From NCBI GenBank assembly GCA_022772675.1, contig JALEZW010000031.1:1-64000 (forward strand): a stretch of 64,000 bases of DNA, given 5' to 3'. This stretch comes from Agathobacter sp. GTDB lineage: Bacteria; Bacillota; Clostridia; Lachnospirales; Lachnospiraceae. A program made the position numbers and the translations under genes. Positions 801-8,811 of this stretch are shown here, one piece after another. Below the pieces are notes generated by a model. It did no database searches. It saw only the letters and a program-made list of their open reading frames with translations, and had not been told where the DNA came from. The first letter of the stretch is position 1. Every line of letters starts with the position of its first letter.

Positions 801-1151
801 ATGAAATGCGAAATTGACTTTAAAAAAATTGGAATGAGAATAAAAACTTTGCGGAATAACTGCAATATGACACAGGAAAAACTTGCTGAAAAAACAGGGC
901 TTTCCCTTTCCCATATATGTAATTTGGAAAACGGGCATTCCAAGATGAGCGTTGAATCACTGATCACCATTGCGGACACACTCTCTGTCTCCACGGACGC
1001 CATCCTGTTTGGTGAAATCTCTCACTGTCACGATGATGATCAGTATTATAAAGATTTTGTTGATGTGATGTTTGACTGTACTGACTTTGAAAAAGGGATA
1101 TTGATTGAAAATGCTATGTATGTGAAAGAAATCCTGCGAAAAAGACCCTAA
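801..1151 (+). CDS. XRE-family helix-turn-helix regulator
   Basis: A 116-residue protein with an N-terminal Cro/C1-type helix-turn-helix (about residues 8-62: IGMRIKTLRNN, MTQEKLAEKTGLS, ICNLENGHSKMS). The C-terminal half is short, acidic and rich in aromatic residues and has no recognisable enzyme domain, so it is probably a dimerisation or ligand region. It converges with the last gene of the neighbouring minus-strand cassette, sharing 4 bp at the stop codons. It could regulate that cassette or belong to the IS-flanked debris on its left; the sequence does not decide this. A modest AGGAT ribosome binding site precedes the ATG. Confidence 0.8.
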   Translation: MKCEIDFKKIGMRIKTLRNNCNMTQEKLAEKTGLSLSHICNLENGHSKMSVESLITIADTLSVSTDAILFGEISHCHDDDQYYKDFVDVMFDCTDFEKGILIENAMYVKEILRKRP

Positions 1152-2254
1152 TTGCAGCTTTTTAACATTTTTTCCAATTTTACTTTTCTTTCTTCATCCT
1201 TGTCCCAAAAATCCTCATATTTTCGAATAAGATCCAAAACACACTGAGCGCACTTATTTATTTCTTCATCTACCTGAATAATTTGACAACGCACCCCTAC
1301 AAAAAGGGTATAATAAATCTGTGTTATGTCATAAAAGAATATACTCATCATATTTGTGTATGATTTATACCAAGCATACATATCTTTGTTCAGTTCTTCT
1401 CCATATTTCAGGAAGTTCGATTTCCACTCTGTTTTATCATTCAATGTATATTGGAAAGCATCCAAAATTAAATTTGTATAACCTGTAATGAGAATTTTAT
1501 TTTGAAACTCCTTATCTCTCTTTTTCCCATTTATCAACATACACCATCGATTCCAGACAATACTACTAATATTCTTTAGTATATTAGTTTCATATGTATT
1601 CTGAATCTCCTGATACGCTTTTGTCAAGACTTCCAACTCTCCACGATTAATTGACATGTCTAAATTTATTGTCTCTGCAAATATAATCAATGCTTTCTCA
1701 TTTACGTGATCCAGAACATAAGGAATCATTGTCTGCCAAGCCATATTACGTTCATATCTACATATCCATCTTTTCCATAAGAATAAATCTGAATTTGCAA
1801 TCTTTATTACCGCGCATACTATGTCACCTTCACATTTCAATCCGTGTTGAAATTGCTTCAAAAGAATTCTGGCACACTCAAAATAAAAACGTGGATAAGG
1901 GACCTCTTGCCTGACAAAATTCTGTATCATCTCTGTATCACAGGCAGTTGTAAGAAAAAGCCAATAATCAATGATACTATTTCTCTTTGCCAAAACCTGA
2001 CATAACCGATGTGGACTTTCGTTATAAGCTTTTTGAAATAACTTACGAATACGTTCATCAGAACTGGGAGCCCTGCCTCTTTCAAAGGCATCTATAAACT
2101 CGTAAATTTTGTCCAGATCTTCGTTTTGAATTCCCTCTTGTAAATGCTGATAATACATCCGATCTGCTCTAGGTGCCCTTCTATCCAAATTTACTGTATA
2201 TGTCAATTTTTCCAGTGCTTCCCAAATATCCGTCGTTTTGTTAACATTTTCCAT
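1148..2254 (-). CDS. uncharacterised helical protein, last gene of defence-like cassette
   Basis: I do not recognise this protein. It is about 368 residues, predicted mostly alpha-helical, rich in Trp, Tyr and Lys, with no signal peptide, no clear membrane segment and no P-loop or nuclease motif that I can see. The start is placed at the ATG inside TGATG, where it overlaps the stop codon of the preceding PLD-like gene and has GAGG about 8 nt upstream; an in-frame ATG 27 nt further upstream is possible but lacks a good site. The one-base overlap implies translational coupling and a stoichiometric partner of the PLD-like protein. The role may be a scaffold or regulatory subunit, which is inference from position only. 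Confidence 0.8.
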   Translation of the reverse strand: MENVNKTTDIWEALEKLTYTVNLDRRAPRADRMYYQHLQEGIQNEDLDKIYEFIDAFERGRAPSSDERIRKLFQKAYNESPHRLCQVLAKRNSIIDYWLFLTTACDTEMIQNFVRQEVPYPRFYFECARILLKQFQHGLKCEGDIVCAVIKIANSDLFLWKRWICRYERNMAWQTMIPYVLDHVNEKALIIFAETINLDMSINRGELEVLTKAYQEIQNTYETNILKNISSIVWNRWCMLINGKKRDKEFQNKILITGYTNLILDAFQYTLNDKTEWKSNFLKYGEELNKDMYAWYKSYTNMMSIFFYDITQIYYTLFVGVRCQIIQVDEEINKCAQCVLDLIRKYEDFWDKDEERKVKLEKMLKSCN

Positions 2255-3999
2255 CAGCTTTTCCTCTTCCATACTAAACATTCCGGATCTGATAATTCAT
2301 CCCATAAAACTTCAAATGTATCTACAATCATCTGTGGATGTTCTACACATTGAATGATATGATGTTTCTTGCCAAGGCTATTAACCGATGAACCCAGTGA
2401 CCATACCTGTGGCTTATTTGATTCTTCAATCAACATCAGAAATCGATCATGAAAACGATAGCCGTGATTATTCCACTGACATCGTAATTCTGCCTGGATT
2501 CCGTAATGATTACTTCTCTCTCCAATAATTCTATTTTGCTCCTTTATCCACTTCTTTACAGAAATATGACTCCTTTGAGCAATTTCACCGGAAGTAATCG
2601 CGTATAAAGAGGCATTAAAGCTGGTAGTATAATACCAAGTATTTAAAATATCTTCCACAGTCAGATATGGATCCCATAAATACACTTTTCCTGTTCTTGC
2701 TCGGTTCATTAAAGAAATTAAATCCCTTCTGGCCTTGTCGGATTCCTGAACAATTCCATATTGTCTAAACTCTGCCCGTATGTATAATTCATCTACACGT
2801 CTACGATACTGACGATTCTTAACATAATCGTCACGCAAACGAATAACCGGAGGACCTACGTGAATATTATGTGCCGATTTTATCTCAAACTGATCCACTA
2901 CTTGACCATCTTTGTCATATATTACCCGTTGTTCTCCATACTGTGCCCCTAATTCCATCATGTTTGATATTTCTCTCATCATCGAAGTATCTTGTCGAGA
3001 TAATAATAGTTGATTTTTAAGATCTATGACTGTAGATTTACAAAGTCGTGATGCATCTCCAACAGAAAAAGTAACCTCTACACCTTCTTTTCCGAACAAT
3101 GTAGTTCCAAAAGCAACGATGGTATCATCTGAGCTTCCCTCGGAAAGTAATTGAAATTCACAAGAATCGCCCACTCTTTGATCTAATGACACATTATAGG
3201 TCAGTTTCGTCTCTATCTCATCAACACAATACGAAGTTCTAATATTCAATGATGGAAACTGAAAGACAAAATTTCCAATTCGATCAGAGACTGCAAATAA
3301 ATCTATCGGAAGGATTCTATATATTTCATCAGTCATCTTTCGAAATTCTGATGTCTTAAGAACATTTTTGACTTTTTTATCAACTTCAAAAAACTCCAAT
3401 AGGTAACTTCCATTTTTAAAATTATTCTTGAGTACCTTATTAAGAAGAACTTCTTTTGTGCTATTCTGCTGAACAAATACTTTGGGAACAGCTTCAAGCT
3501 TTCCTATCTTGAGTTTCCCATCTCCAATATCAATCTCCTGCTTATTCCGACTTCCACATAAAATCTTATAAATATTTCTAACGGTCTGAAGATTCAGAAC
3601 CTTCTTTTTTATCCCAAGTGAAAATTCTTCTGATATATAAAAAGGCTTATCCGTTAGATATGTTGACTCCTGCTCTACTTCTACTCGCTCATCAAAAACA
3701 AAAATGGTATAGACATTGCATACCTCTTTCGTCACATTATCCATCAGAAACACGGATACCATTTCACAACAATTATAAAAACCCAAACTGTCACAGGAAA
3801 TTAATTTATCATAATCATTCAACAAACATTCAAATGAAATATTTTCATTTTTTTTCATTCCCTTAAACACGATTTCTTCTGACGCCTCTACCATTCCATA
3901 TTCATCAAATCTGGAAATTCCCGTCTTTGCCACAAACACGCCGACTGCGTTGCTCTTTGTTGAAAATGTTCTGGATGTCTTTGACGAAAATTTTACCAA
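2254..3999 (-). CDS. PLD-like (HxDRF motif) protein of defence-like cassette
   Basis: A 581-residue protein whose C-terminal third resembles phospholipase D-like domains found in defence and restriction proteins: a WDPYLT strand near residue 450, then GYRFHDRFLMLI with His517-Asp518-Arg519, and WSLGSSVNSLGK around 533-544, the place of the second strand and Ser/Asn pocket in one PLD half. Only one HxD/K-type half is visible, so an active enzyme would need to dimerise. The N-terminal ~400 residues are unfamiliar; the layout recalls the VPA1262-type proteins, but I could not test that. The start is uncertain (apparent TTG at 3999, weak Shine-Dalgarno). It lies 53 nt after the OLD-type gene and overlaps the next gene by TGATG. 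Confidence 0.8.
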   Translation of the reverse strand: MVKFSSKTSRTFSTKSNAVGVFVAKTGISRFDEYGMVEASEEIVFKGMKKNENISFECLLNDYDKLISCDSLGFYNCCEMVSVFLMDNVTKEVCNVYTIFVFDERVEVEQESTYLTDKPFYISEEFSLGIKKKVLNLQTVRNIYKILCGSRNKQEIDIGDGKLKIGKLEAVPKVFVQQNSTKEVLLNKVLKNNFKNGSYLLEFFEVDKKVKNVLKTSEFRKMTDEIYRILPIDLFAVSDRIGNFVFQFPSLNIRTSYCVDEIETKLTYNVSLDQRVGDSCEFQLLSEGSSDDTIVAFGTTLFGKEGVEVTFSVGDASRLCKSTVIDLKNQLLLSRQDTSMMREISNMMELGAQYGEQRVIYDKDGQVVDQFEIKSAHNIHVGPPVIRLRDDYVKNRQYRRRVDELYIRAEFRQYGIVQESDKARRDLISLMNRARTGKVYLWDPYLTVEDILNTWYYTTSFNASLYAITSGEIAQRSHISVKKWIKEQNRIIGERSNHYGIQAELRCQWNNHGYRFHDRFLMLIEESNKPQVWSLGSSVNSLGKKHHIIQCVEHPQMIVDTFEVLWDELSDPECLVWKRKS

Positions 4000-4052
4000 C
4001 CGTTATTATGTTCGTATGGGCATAACAGCTCATTTTTTATAGCCCCTTGTTT

Positions 4053-5717
4053 TCATATCCCGTTCCACCGCTTTATCCTATCACATAACTTCATAATCTG
4101 TTTTTTAAGACCTAGCATATTTCCCATGTTTTCACATGTCATGTATTTCGTGGCAGCCCTGGCAAATGCAACCTTTTTACCAGTAAAGTTTGTATAATAT
4201 GAATCAATGTATTCTGGGAAAAGCTCATACTGTCCACATTGCATTGGAAGATGCGTATCCAGCATGGCTTCGATTACTGATTTCGGGATATAGTTCTCAA
4301 TTTCCTTTCCCTTTGTAACCCATGACATCATATGAAGCTGTGTAAATTCATCTATTATCCTGCGCTTTGTTCCATTCAGGTGTGCACGTTTACTGCGCTT
4401 ATCACTGTCCATCACTATCACTGCATTCCTATTGGTCTTAATTACATTTATAAGATCTGTTGTCTCCTGGGCAGAATACTGTGATAACAGGCGGCCGCCA
4501 TAATACAGAAACTGATAATGGACTCCCTCCTGGAACTTCCCCGGACAAAACAGTTCTATCCACTTCTGTATGTAAACTCTGTCCGAAGGTCCCTCCACCC
4601 AAATTATTCCATTGGACTGTAACAGATCACTGGCCTTTACATCCAGATCATCCAATATTTCTGTCTTGTCCAAATACGATTCTATTCTCTTGACATAAGC
4701 TTTACCATTCTGTTTATACACATGAAAAATACCAGCTTCGTCTCTGTCATAGAATGCATTAATTGCAACATGAGAATGTGATGTAATAAACATCTGAATA
4801 TCATGTTTCACTGCAAATTCATATATAAACTCAAATAGTTTTCTCTGCATAGCAGGATGCAGATTATTCTCCAATTCCTCAAACCCATATATGATTTTCT
4901 TATTTTTAAATTCCTTAAGCTTTGGAATGACCATCAAATTGAGCAATACCAAAATTATCGTCTTAAGACCGCTTCCCATCTGTGACAATGGGCATTTGTC
5001 CATGCCATTCTCCTTTAGGAAAACTTCCCACCGTACATTCCCATAAGAATCAGTAATCTGCTGAACCCTAATTTCTTCAAACTCAGCTTCTGGAGACATA
5101 ATCTTATTGACCGCACTTAAGAGATCTTTCTCAATAATTGATTCATCATAACTACTGTCATTTAAAAATACTCTGATGAGATTAGTTGCCCCTTCTCCTG
5201 TACAAGAAAGATCCTCCAAAGTCTTTCCAATCTCATACACCTCTTCGGGAAGTATGTTACGTTCGGCTGAAATACGTCTAAAAGCATAGTTTTTTCTCTC
5301 ATCTTGAAGCATATATTCAATATTTCCTGAATTTCTATTATCTAGAATAGGAATTCTTGCATCCCAAGGAACCATCTCTCCTTGTCGATTCTCAGACTTC
5401 ACCTTATATCCTACAAAATGTCCCTTTGATATTTGCCACATTGAATCCCTTGTTTCACCGTTGATTGTTGCATATCCCGAAAATAACCTACCACACATTT
5501 CCTCCGTCACCGGGACTTTCGCTACAATCTCATTTGCCTTTTGGGAATTATATTCAAAAAAATGACTATCATATGTCATCCCCACAACATCAAGAATACT
5601 AGATTTGCCACAGTTATTCTTCCCAATGATAACCGATACCCTTGGAAGATTATCCAATTCAGTATAGTTCTCTGCAGTAAAGGCCTTGTAGCCCTTAAAT
5701 CTTATTCCTGTGTACAT
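4053..5717 (-). CDS. OLD-family ATPase with C-terminal TOPRIM nuclease domain
   Basis: A 554-residue protein with ABC-type ATPase motifs: Walker A GKNNCGKS (32-39), signature-like LSQMGSGLKT (244-253), Walker B IIYGFEELENNLHP (275-288) and the switch histidine in TSHSH (312-316). A TOPRIM domain follows: VEGPSDR (374-380), VIVMDSDK (433-440) and KEIENYIPK (471-479), the usual E, DxD and EIENY elements. This is the architecture of OLD nucleases, which couple ATP-driven dimer changes to DNA cleavage and are recurrent in anti-phage systems. The start is the ATG at 5717 because AAGAGGG lies 7-8 nt upstream; an upstream in-frame ATG has no such site. Class 2 OLD proteins are often paired with UvrD (Gabija); no UvrD helicase is present here, and a PLD-like gene follows instead. 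Confidence 0.92.
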   Translation of the reverse strand: MYTGIRFKGYKAFTAENYTELDNLPRVSVIIGKNNCGKSSILDVVGMTYDSHFFEYNSQKANEIVAKVPVTEEMCGRLFSGYATINGETRDSMWQISKGHFVGYKVKSENRQGEMVPWDARIPILDNRNSGNIEYMLQDERKNYAFRRISAERNILPEEVYEIGKTLEDLSCTGEGATNLIRVFLNDSSYDESIIEKDLLSAVNKIMSPEAEFEEIRVQQITDSYGNVRWEVFLKENGMDKCPLSQMGSGLKTIILVLLNLMVIPKLKEFKNKKIIYGFEELENNLHPAMQRKLFEFIYEFAVKHDIQMFITSHSHVAINAFYDRDEAGIFHVYKQNGKAYVKRIESYLDKTEILDDLDVKASDLLQSNGIIWVEGPSDRVYIQKWIELFCPGKFQEGVHYQFLYYGGRLLSQYSAQETTDLINVIKTNRNAVIVMDSDKRSKRAHLNGTKRRIIDEFTQLHMMSWVTKGKEIENYIPKSVIEAMLDTHLPMQCGQYELFPEYIDSYYTNFTGKKVAFARAATKYMTCENMGNMLGLKKQIMKLCDRIKRWNGI

Positions 5718-5761
5718 TGGTTTTCCCTCTTCTTTGAATATGTGTTTTATCAAAAGCAATT

Positions 5762-6185
5762 TCATATACCATTATAGTCTGAATTTTCCATGCAATCAAC
5801 TGATTTTCTCAAGATCCATGCTGCTAACACTCTTACATACCACTCAACTTCCGCTTCTTTTTCCATACTATCGCCATATGCACCGGAAACTGGGTAAAAA
5901 TTTTCTCCTTTTTTTACTAATAACTCCACTATTATATTTAGCCTTGGCTCCTTTCAGTATTCCAACTTTATTATTATCTATTTCTTTCATATGATGATCT
6001 CCTGTTGTAATCTGTTCTAAATATCTTTTACAGATTGTTGCTGGATTTGAGGTCGGTGGTTGTTTAGGTGAATTAAATTCTGTTGTACACCAAACATAAT
6101 GGATATTCTTATAGTATCTTTTTGCTATTATGTATGCTAATTGTGTTCCAGCTGAATATAAAAATGGATTTTTTCTCACATTCAT
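5762..6185 (-). pseudogene. small cassette protein split by a +1 frameshift in an A7 run
   Basis: The first frame encodes a convincing protein start (NPFLYSAGTQLAYIIAKRYY, HYVWCTTEFN, NPATICKRYLEQITTGDHH) but stops shortly after VISKKRRKF. Removing one A from the A7 run near 5905-5911 joins it to a second, coding-looking frame that runs through EVEWYVRVLAAWILRK and ends at 5762, 44 nt before the ribosome binding site region of the OLD gene. The joined product would be about 140 residues. I do not know the family. The disruption may be a real mutation, a sequencing error in a homopolymer, or programmed slippage on the A-rich stretch. Start chosen at the second of two near ATGs, with GGAAG 6 nt upstream. 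Confidence 0.65.
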
Positions 6186-6233
6186 CCCCATCTTCCATCA
6201 TCCCCTTTTCATCATTTGAATTCCTCGTATATT

Positions 6234-6398
6234 TTATCTTTTCAGAAGCATTTCTTCACTGTAGTTCCCGCTCACCAGCTTCTTATTCCACCAGGCAATA
6301 AATATAGTGCCAATTAAGATGCCAATCAAATCCCACGTCATCCAGCGGACATGCCCTTCCATGTACAAAGTACTGATGAATCTAGTCCGATATTGCAT
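6234..6398 (-). CDS. short single-span membrane ORF at the head of the cassette
   Basis: A 54-codon reading frame whose product starts MQYRTRFISTLYMEG and carries one strong hydrophobic span (WDLIGILIGTIFIAWW, about residues 24-39) followed by a charged tail ending in EEMLLKR. The amino-acid pattern looks coding. It ends 48 nt upstream of the frameshifted small gene, on the same strand. No good ribosome binding site precedes the ATG and an in-frame stop lies just upstream, so it may be a 5'-truncated remnant of a longer membrane protein rather than a complete gene. Function unknown. Confidence 0.45.
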   Translation of the reverse strand: MQYRTRFISTLYMEGHVRWMTWDLIGILIGTIFIAWWNKKLVSGNYSEEMLLKR

Positions 6399-6782
6399 AC
6401 AACACGGCCGTCATAAAAGCAACGGTCATATTTTCTTAGAGTTAACACCATTATAAGGCAAAAGGACGAACGCATTTTAACAACCAAAAAATATCATTCT
6501 AATCCTCTTCATACCATACCTTGCAGAAGCTTTTGCGACAGCGAAGCTCTGTTAAAGTGCGCCATTTTTTCATCAATGATTCCTTACTCAAATCTCATCT
6601 GGCATTTTACTAGACTAAACAGACACACCTTCCCTTAAGTTGACGGTAAATTGACCACATAGCCGCCTGACTTTTCTTAAGCACTTCCATTTTTATCATC
6701 TTTGACATATATCAGCTCTAAGCAAGCCAATTATTCTTCATCCTCAAATCTTAGCGTTAACTCCCACTTATCGTTCGGACTA
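6399..6782. other. gap between cassette and ISLre2 remnant
   Basis: No convincing gene is seen in these 384 bases. On the minus strand a good -10 element (TATAAT, plus-strand 6450-6455) preceded by AT-rich sequence could be part of the promoter for the cassette to its left, but no well-spaced -35 was found. Next to 6783 a short minus-strand frame reading SPNDKWELTLRFEDEE followed by a stop may be the tail of another lost mobile-element protein. Confidence 0.4.
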
Positions 6783-6995
6783 TTACCAGTGTTTCTTCCG
6801 CACGACACTGTCATAAATCAGTTTGTCCGTATCTTCCAGACATTCCTTGATAATCTCCAGACCAAGCTTATGAACTTCGTCCGTGACTCCTCGGACCAGC
6901 TCCGCCATCTTCGTTGGATCTTTCATGAACTCTGTTTCAAGTTTTTCAAAAACACTGATGCTTTTTTCTTCAAAATAATTTATACTGTTAATCAT
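6783..6995 (-). pseudogene. ISLre2-family transposase, N-terminal stub
   Basis: About 70 residues resembling the N-terminus of ISLre2-type transposases (starts MINSINYFEEKSISVFEKLE and runs to SVVRKKHW). Two stop codons follow directly after the KKHW motif, where the full-length family of roughly 450 residues would continue. The start ATG has GGAAGGTG about 8 nt upstream, so the native 5' end is preserved. The element is dead and truncated. It shows that the region between the cassette and the recombinase is insertion-sequence debris. Confidence 0.65.
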
Positions 6996-7073
6996 AGAAG
7001 ACACCTTCCATTGTGTGTTTTGGTTTTGTCTCTAATACTTTATCACAAAGTGGTGCCCTCTACTTTTCTTTTT

Positions 7074-7544
7074 CTATTTTTCCGAGTAAAAATTTACGCT
7101 AGCCTCCGCCATATTTCTCTGGTTGTCCAGATAGCGGATATTGGTAGCGGAGAGTCCCAGCAGCTTTGCCTCCGGATAAGTATCCAGAAGCTTTCTGACA
7201 CTTCTGCCCCATTCTTTAGCCCCGCAGCGATGAAATTCATCCAGAATGATATAGTCCGGCTGCAAACTGTCAATGCTGTCCTCATTTTTCATCAGACGGC
7301 TGTATGACAGATACTGGATATTCGGAAATTCCATACCCAGATTTTCCAGCTGCGTCTGGTAGATGTATTCACTGGGGGAAAGCCAGAGGAACTTTTCCAT
7401 TGGATGATCCTCTGCCAGTTTGAAGGCAATCAGCGACTTTCCTGTCCCGGTGGGATGGATGACCGCTGCCTTTCCCTCCTGTTCCAGCATGGTGCTTGCT
7501 GCTTCATATGCTTCCTGGTTGTGTTTGAAAAGATGAATAGCCAT
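7074..7544 (-). pseudogene. SF2 DEAD/DEAH helicase, N-terminal stub
   Basis: A 156-residue fragment of a superfamily 2 helicase. It shows Walker A HPTGTGKSLIAF near residue 30, motif II LDEFHRCG and motif III GLSATN, and stops soon after NIRYLDNQRNMAE. Family members are several hundred residues longer with a second RecA-like domain, which is absent here, so this cannot be a working helicase. The native start is present (GGAGC upstream of the ATG). Such helicases are common cargo of mobile elements and restriction-like loci. It is probably a deletion remnant. Confidence 0.8.
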
Positions 7545-7959
7545 ATGTCTGCTCCAATCCGCTTCTTGTCTTCAGGACATACCACATGTTCCTGCCGCCT
7601 CCTGACATGCGTTCTGTACGGTCATGCCTATTCAGGTCTGATGGTCAGGCTATTTGCTACATAATCAATATTTTGTTGTTAATGTTGAGTGAAAAAGCAT
7701 ATAAAAAAACAACCCTGACACAGGCTGCTAAAAAGAGAACTTCATTATTATAAAGAAGTGCACGTCACTCAAGCCTGGCAAATATTCAAACAAAAAATTT
7801 GCCAGGCTTTTTGGGGGGCTTTCTTTTTTATACAATTTTTTCGGTTCAATCAGCAAAATATTAAAAATATAGACGTTTTAGCTTGCATTCCGCCGATAGA
7901 AGTGCTATTTTACTATATGAAACTAAAAAAAATAGCAAAATATGATAACATTATATTGA
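7545..7959. other. gap between helicase stub and recombinase
   Basis: No gene is supported here. It holds a strong plus-strand terminator-like hairpin (separate entry, 7772-7812), and then very AT-rich sequence up to the end of the recombinase gene. Because the recombinase ends at 7960, an attachment site could lie in this stretch, but no repeat of it was recognised elsewhere in the window. Confidence 0.4.
7772..7812 (+). terminator. Rho-independent terminator-like hairpin
   Basis: Perfect 12-bp arms AGCCTGGCAAAT / ATTTGCCAGGCT separated by 13 nt and followed by a run of T on the plus strand. No plus-strand gene lies just upstream, so it is either an orphan left by deletion or a barrier protecting the recombinase end. 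Confidence 0.6.
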
Positions 7960-8811
7960 TTATGTAGCTAACACCATCTCCATCTGGTCTAGCTGGCGTT
8001 TATGTTCCTCTCCTGTAGAGCGGATATAAATGCGTGTGGTTTCGATATTACTGTGTCCTAAGACATCCGCAAGCTTTGCGATGTTTTTTTTTATCTGGTA
8101 AAAGCACTTGGCAAACAAGTGTCTCAGATTATGCGGAAACACTTTCTCTTTATCCACACCTGCTTTTTCGCAGAGCTGCTTCATCATCCGCCATACTGTC
8201 GTGCGGTGCAGCGGCTTTCCGGTACGGGTACAGAATACAGCTCCGCTTTTGATGCCATGCTTTTTTGTATATTTCATCAGAACCCGGCACAGCTTGCTGG
8301 GATAGAGAATTCTCCGCACTTTTCCTTTGTTATAAATTTCTGCCATTCCCTGCCGCAGGGACTCCACCGTAATGTACTGTAATTCACTGACACGGATTCC
8401 GGTACTGCCGATGGTCTGCATGACAAGTGCCAGCTTTTCATTACCGGACTGCTCCGCCGTCCGAATGAGCTGCTGGTATTCTTTCTTTGACAGATCCTTG
8501 TTCTCCGGGCAGAAGGCCTCCTCCTGCACACGGATGGTCTTGATACGAAGTTCATCCCAGCCCATTTTTTCGCAGAAATGGTTCACTGCTGCCAGAAAGG
8601 AATTGATACTGCGGGTCTTGTAGCGTCCGCTGTCCTTTAAGTATGCTTTATAGAGTATGAGCATTTCCTTGTCCAGGTCCCGTCCCTGCAGAAACTCCTG
8701 CAGTTTGCGGATGTCACGGACATATTTCCGGATTGTGGAGCTCTGCTTCTCATCCTCATACATAGCCATACGAAACTGTTCTATTTTCTCGTCTGTAATT
8801 TGTCTTTCCAT
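7960..8811 (-). CDS. tyrosine recombinase / XerC-like integrase
   Basis: A 283-residue site-specific recombinase. The N-terminal half is a SAM-like core-binding domain (RQITDEKIEQFRMAM to about residue 100). The C-terminal catalytic half shows the tyrosine recombinase residues: Arg in GSTGIRVSEL, His-x-x-Arg in HNLRHLFAKC, and His plus nucleophile Tyr in LGHSNIETTRIYIRS. The size fits XerC-like or short element integrases, not long ICE integrases. A good AAGGAG site precedes the ATG. It sits in mobile debris, so it is more likely an element integrase than the housekeeping Xer. Its att sites were not identified. Confidence 0.9.
   Translation of the reverse strand: MERQITDEKIEQFRMAMYEDEKQSSTIRKYVRDIRKLQEFLQGRDLDKEMLILYKAYLKDSGRYKTRSINSFLAAVNHFCEKMGWDELRIKTIRVQEEAFCPENKDLSKKEYQQLIRTAEQSGNEKLALVMQTIGSTGIRVSELQYITVESLRQGMAEIYNKGKVRRILYPSKLCRVLMKYTKKHGIKSGAVFCTRTGKPLHRTTVWRMMKQLCEKAGVDKEKVFPHNLRHLFAKCFYQIKKNIAKLADVLGHSNIETTRIYIRSTGEEHKRQLDQMEMVLAT

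Follow-up and report, generated by a model that had tools for sequence, protein, structure and literature searches.

Near the start of a 64,000-nucleotide (nt) stretch of Agathobacter sp. DNA (contig JALEZW010000031.1, positions 1 to 64,000; hereafter the window, whose positions are used throughout), several minus-strand open reading frames (ORFs) follow each other closely between 1148 and 6398, which raises the question of which of them belong together. An earlier note on this DNA had proposed that five frames form one undescribed defence cassette, consisting of an OLD-type nuclease, a PLD-like protein, a helical partner and small leading proteins. The gene order described there is real, but only three of the five frames are genes, and grouping all five as one unit is not justified. 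The PLD-like and helical genes do form a unit, whereas the OLD gene and the small proteins have to be excluded from it.

A two-gene module

The three intact minus-strand genes in 1148-5720 encode an OLD-type protein, a PLD-like protein and a helical protein. The PLD-fold gene (2254..3858, minus strand) encodes 534 amino acids (aa) from ATG 3858, and is directly followed by the gene for the helical partner (1148..2254, minus strand, 368 aa), the start of which overlaps the PLD stop codon in a TGATG at 2254, as reported before. Together, the two genes span approximately 2.7 kb. When 102 loci (numbered L025-L126) were searched with a PLD profile, 97 matched; the other five contain a longer type of NF040700 protein (see below) and were kept outside this set. 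At 90 of the 97 loci, a same-strand ORF is located directly behind the PLD gene, and 84 of these ORFs are recognised by a profile of the partner that was built from the window protein and seven of its close relatives. The partner is displaced or cut at five more loci, due to an IS630 insertion (L026), a broken PLD gene (L096), a split (L067) or a contig end (L039 and L047), which brings the total to 89 of 97. Among the loci without a matched partner, the contig ends close behind the PLD gene in L031, L122, L126 and L088, a right-sized but unmatched ORF is present in L059 and L061, and a divergent one in L041, while none was found in L095. The 97 loci are partly dependent, as the pair has the same DNA sequence in L030 and L081, in L090 and L091, and in L120 and L125, and L037/L050 and L039/L047 are seemingly the same places.

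For a census of neighbours, 88 loci were used, after dropping nine by hand (L035, L037, L038, L039, L041, L081, L091, L106 and L125), of which L035, L038 and L041 were removed without proof of repetition and L106 is not identical to L105. BLAST clustering of the 963 flanking ORFs, many of the flanks stopping at contig ends, revealed no other family in more than 7 of the 88 loci. The pairwise distances of PLD and partner proteins correlated (r 0.90, 67 loci), and none of 1000 permutations gave a value as high. Since shared descent contributes to this correlation, it speaks for co-inheritance and not for contact. The partners in the clade of the window (L042-L046, L048 and L049) are shorter, with 363-395 codons, whereas the 90 ORFs have a median length of 485 codons, and the PLD protein of L042 is 62% identical to that of the window. 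The partner protein is predicted to be all-helical (AlphaFold), and searches of Pfam, NCBIfam, PADLOC and PHROGs at E 0.001 left it unmatched. Thus, the part of the earlier proposal that places the PLD-like and helical proteins in one unit was borne out by their joint recurrence in unrelated genomes and, judged by these sequence comparisons, the functional unit is a two-gene module of a PLD-fold protein and a helical partner.

The PLD-fold protein has a non-canonical pocket

The PLD frame is open up to TTG 3999, giving a 581-aa frame that ends at the stop codon at 2254. Residues 124-568 of this frame match the NCBIfam entry NF040700 (VPA1262_N_dom) with 167.4 bits (E 4.6e-49), well over the curated cut-off of 80 bits. 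The AlphaFold model of the protein has a predicted local distance difference test (pLDDT) score of 92, and comparison of this model with the PDB places a PLD superfamily fold at the C-terminus (residues ~354-534), with the N-domain of SauUSI, NucT, Nuc and BfiI among the matches, and gives a beta-sandwich match at residues ~150-295. Both the HxDRF motif and the serine/asparagine pocket that had been noticed in the DNA are present, as FHDRF and GxSxN. To follow these residues through the family, we used alignments of 73 PLD and 68 partner sequences, from which incomplete or repeated ones had been left out. The pocket residues H470, D471, R472, S491 and N493 are invariant in all 73 PLD sequences, which are 23-62% identical to the window protein. 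Canonical HKD enzymes have the motif HxK(x)4D(x)6GSxxN. The family deviates from this motif, as the lysine is replaced by arginine in 73 of 73 sequences and the aspartate position is occupied by proline in 66 of 73. Longer NF040700 proteins of 976-1117 aa are found at L032, L033, L034, L036 and L040, and no relation to the helical partner could be detected for their C-terminal halves.

Distribution and genomic context of the pair

Close to home the family is rare: among 60 genomes of the genus and among 196 of the order, the only one with a match to the PLD protein was in both cases the own genome, and NF040700 occurs in 14 of 398 genomes of the phylum, own genome included, 11 of them over the cut-off. 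Relatives are also present in seven plasmid records, one phage record and five viral contigs. A profile scan of 84,980 species genomes gave 100 PLD relatives, and because the best 80 of these were kept, the sample leans to closer relatives. Based on record titles and known genera, the relatives from all these sources belong to Bacillota, Pseudomonadota, Bacteroidota, Campylobacterota and Spirochaetota, and further to Fibrobacterota, Acidobacteriota, Chloroflexota and Bdellovibrionota. The archaeal relatives come from two Methanobrevibacter genomes, both of which are metagenome-assembled. In one Rhizobium contig, the pair is present twice, approximately 280 kb apart (L090 and L091), with identical DNA.

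Several copies have defence or mobile genes as neighbours. On plasmids, the pair is located near a restriction S subunit and a reverse transcriptase (L025), beside restriction endonucleases (L028) and beside a CBASS cyclase with its effector (L029), and the context is less clear in L026, with mobile mystery proteins and IS630, and in L027, with an antitoxin gene and a large DEAD/DEAH helicase. In L125 (7989-11010), the DNA of which is identical to that of the Acinetobacter locus L120, the pair resides in a prophage, where it is flanked by a replication-initiation-like gene on one side and tail genes on the other. That some relatives lie beside Gabija (see below), CBASS or restriction genes argues for a defence role. 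For a broader view, 138 nearest neighbours from many phyla were selected, of which 130 were scanned, and compared with 130 control ORFs from 20 stretches of five genomes, all of the phylum of the window. At E <= 1e-15 the neighbours matched 207 PADLOC families and the controls 78, whereby one protein can count repeatedly because families are counted. Among the 25 kinds listed for the neighbours were ThsB, HamA, PD-T4-6, a phospholipase effector, mad6, Orf5, PDC-S01 and reverse transcriptases, and among the 25 for the controls dGTPase, DndA, SspA, a methyltransferase, PDC-M03 and, again, reverse transcriptases. This tally weakly favours a defence context. In Pfam, phage integrases were matched by 4 of the 130 neighbours.

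The OLD gene is a separate gene

The OLD gene (4053..5720, minus strand, 555 aa from ATG 5720) matches Pfam AAA_15 (E 1.7e-23). In an alignment with five plasmid relatives, all the ATPase and TOPRIM motifs that had been ascribed to this gene could be read, namely Walker A (GKNNCGKS) and Walker B of the ATPase, and VEGPSDR and DSD of the TOPRIM domain. The own genome contains four UvrD-helicase matches and one RVT_1 match, all of them outside contig C48, on which the OLD gene lies; the classical OLD partner, the UvrD of Gabija, is therefore absent from this contig, in agreement with the earlier note.

The membership of the OLD gene in a system with the PLD-like protein did not hold. A BLAST search of the PLD flanks resulted in a single 48-residue OLD match (E 0.002, in L071) and no clear relative. 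A profile of six OLD proteins found five ORFs in 4 of the 88 PLD flanks at 1e-3, none of which adjoins the PLD gene. In L069, from a Fibrobacter genome, the best OLD-profile match is GajA of a complete Gabija system (L069:4305-11041), in which 22 nt separate the end of the GajB gene at 7912 from the earliest possible PLD start. The other OLD-profile matches lie further from the PLD gene than those in L069 and L097; in the latter (L097:3220-7999), an OLD-like ORF is followed by two other same-strand ORFs and then the PLD gene. The phylum sample contained three partial OLD matches only, with 25-28% identity. OLD relatives are present in 13 plasmid records, and the five that were viewed have no annotated PLD or UvrD neighbour. 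The plasmid relative in L131 adjoins another AAA ATPase, and the Rhodococcus relative in L133 has AAA and SMC ATPases nearby. Within the loci searched, OLD and PLD genes are thus not neighbours anywhere else, the very finding that, according to the earlier note, would refute its proposal.

A second line of evidence comes from the DNA between the genes. The own genome carries two intact copies of a VanZ-like gene, on contigs C50 and C51, and pieces resembling it are scattered over the window. A remnant of its middle part (3900..3993, minus strand, 75-76% DNA identity to C51/C50) lies before the PLD gene, and a remnant of its 3' end (6268..6422, minus strand, 77% DNA identity over 172 aligned columns) lies before the OLD gene, so that the pieces are in a changed order. 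This remnant DNA was found in 1 of 60 genus genomes, the own genome only. Because of the changed order, we read the OLD gene and the PLD pair as separate arrivals, brought by different events into a rearranged region, with the VanZ-like remnants marking the boundary between them. Since OLD does not adjoin PLD in any of the relatives examined, and is cut off from it by a VanZ scar in the window, it does not belong to the unit; it is a lone gene, which is probably also defensive.

Start sites and debris around the genes

The VanZ remnant at 3900-3993, between OLD and PLD, falls within the PLD frame when this is extended to TTG 3999, and it gave rise to this false start. ATG 3858 is the best candidate for the PLD start, and it fits the N-termini of the nearest relatives. 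The 53-nt gap reported between OLD and PLD depended on TTG 3999, ahead of the remnant; with ATG 3858 the spacing is 194 nt, with the VanZ remnant inside. A promoter scan of 3600-6700 gave 8 promoter-like sites, compared to a mean of 12.8 in shuffled sequences.

Upstream of OLD, the previously described gaps of 48 and 44 nt flank frames that are not genes. The supposed 140-residue leading protein falls apart into two frames, 6197-5868 (109 codons) and 5953-5762 (63 codons), counted from stop to stop, and part of it (5828..5909, minus strand) is a leftover, with 84% DNA identity, of the small gene located behind the VanZ-like gene on C51. The 54-aa ORF at 6398-6234 overlaps the remnant of the VanZ 3' end, in which the match to the VanZ frame (6325-6426) is interrupted by a TAG, and does not qualify as a gene either. 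On the strength of the DNA comparison, the small leading proteins are decayed gene debris and not genes. Further upstream of the cluster are a weak UPF0236 match (6783-7004), a truncated ResIII-type helicase fragment (7074-7544) and a tyrosine recombinase (7960-8811).

Possible function of the pair

A defence role is the likeliest reading that context and analogy suggest. We lean, by a small degree, towards an anti-phage or anti-plasmid module in which the PLD-fold protein would be the effector and the helical protein its sensor or scaffold. In this model, an infection cue would be sensed or bound by the partner and by the N-terminal regions of the PLD protein, both of which would restrain the PLD domain until then. 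After activation, this domain would work as a dimer, which is proposed because each chain carries one half-site only, and cleave nucleic acid or another phosphodiester, and in this way the module would protect cells from phages or plasmids. Two observations weigh against a defence role. Eight neighbour proteins, from L025, L029, L042, L043, L045 and L048, have no PADLOC match at 1e-5, and the surroundings of the pair in L043 and L048 are ORFs that resemble sialic-acid/polysaccharide genes, as judged by eye from the ORF starts. The latter would suit a module with a task in surface glycans or the envelope, and carriage by plasmids and a prophage would also suit an addiction pair of the toxin-antitoxin kind on mobile elements. 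Nevertheless, we consider such a non-defence module unlikely: the neighbours vary widely, several loci contain defence or mobile genes, and both proteins are far larger than those of usual toxin-antitoxin pairs.

The PLD-fold domain might also be a non-catalytic binding module, like the PLD-like domains of the FAM83 and TrmB types, in which case the pair would be a sensor or regulatory complex. That the pocket H, R, S and N stay the same throughout all 73 sequences, at identities down to 23%, would be unusual for a dead site, and the nucleases NucT, Nuc and SauUSI are among the fold matches, which makes this improbable as well. That OLD, PLD and the helical protein act as one system, as first proposed, fits their common strand and short gaps in this one genome, and 4 of the 88 PLD loci contain OLD-like ORFs in their wider flanks. 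However, none of these ORFs adjoins the PLD gene, the one in L069 being GajA of Gabija, the VanZ scar separates OLD from PLD in the window, and the five viewed plasmid relatives of OLD lack PLD neighbours. Moreover, 13 other genomes of the phylum contain PLD relatives and three others OLD matches, with no overlap. A three-gene system is already contradicted in the loci searched, and we regard it as very improbable. Returning to the two-gene defence module, we judge the chances to be even that the pair represents an undescribed immune module, present in many bacterial phyla and some methanogens, in which an HxR/GxSxN PLD half-site effector would work under a near-constant helical-repeat partner.

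Comparison with known systems

Neither the PLD-like nor the helical protein has a PADLOC match better than E 0.006, in line with the earlier view of an undescribed candidate system. NF040700 is a domain name only, and neither a partner nor a function is attached to the entry. VPA1262 is named in PMC1464126, which gives primer and distribution tables for a Vibrio genomic island, and also in PMC3656152, whereas NF040700 itself was found in none of the papers searched. A published function for the NF040700 family was not found in a search that supplements and most subscription journals lay outside. A term search of the DefensePredictor main text (PMC13092281) gave no description of the PLD-partner pair, nor did literature searches for PLD proteins in anti-phage systems. 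Thus, a named domain with no function found in print is coupled to a near-constant partner without a family match.

Class 1 OLD proteins are defined in a review (PMC10568477) as single genes without a UvrD-like helicase or reverse-transcriptase partner. The window OLD fits this class, examples of which are P2 Old and TsOLD, both in its ATPase and TOPRIM motifs and in being a lone gene, as its contig contains neither UvrD nor a reverse transcriptase. Unlike Class 1 OLD, it adjoins another system in a debris-rich region. It resembles GajA of Gabija (best E 2.1e-19), but without a GajB-type helicase on contig C48 it does not amount to a Gabija system. In Menshen (NsnABC), NsnA and NsnC stand beside NsnB. 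The window OLD matches the NsnB ATPase model (2.7e-22), slightly below its AriA match. Menshen was rejected, as OLD was the only one of six scanned proteins to match, and there was no Nsn match for the PLD or the helical protein.

PLD-fold nucleases include a defence member, DrmC of DISARM. Compared to such nucleases, the window protein has HxR in place of HxK and lacks the motif aspartate. The module would add a variant of the PLD half-site (HxR), for which activity is not self-evident. Where defence PLD nucleases have helicase or DNA-recognition parts, the window pair has an all-helical partner.

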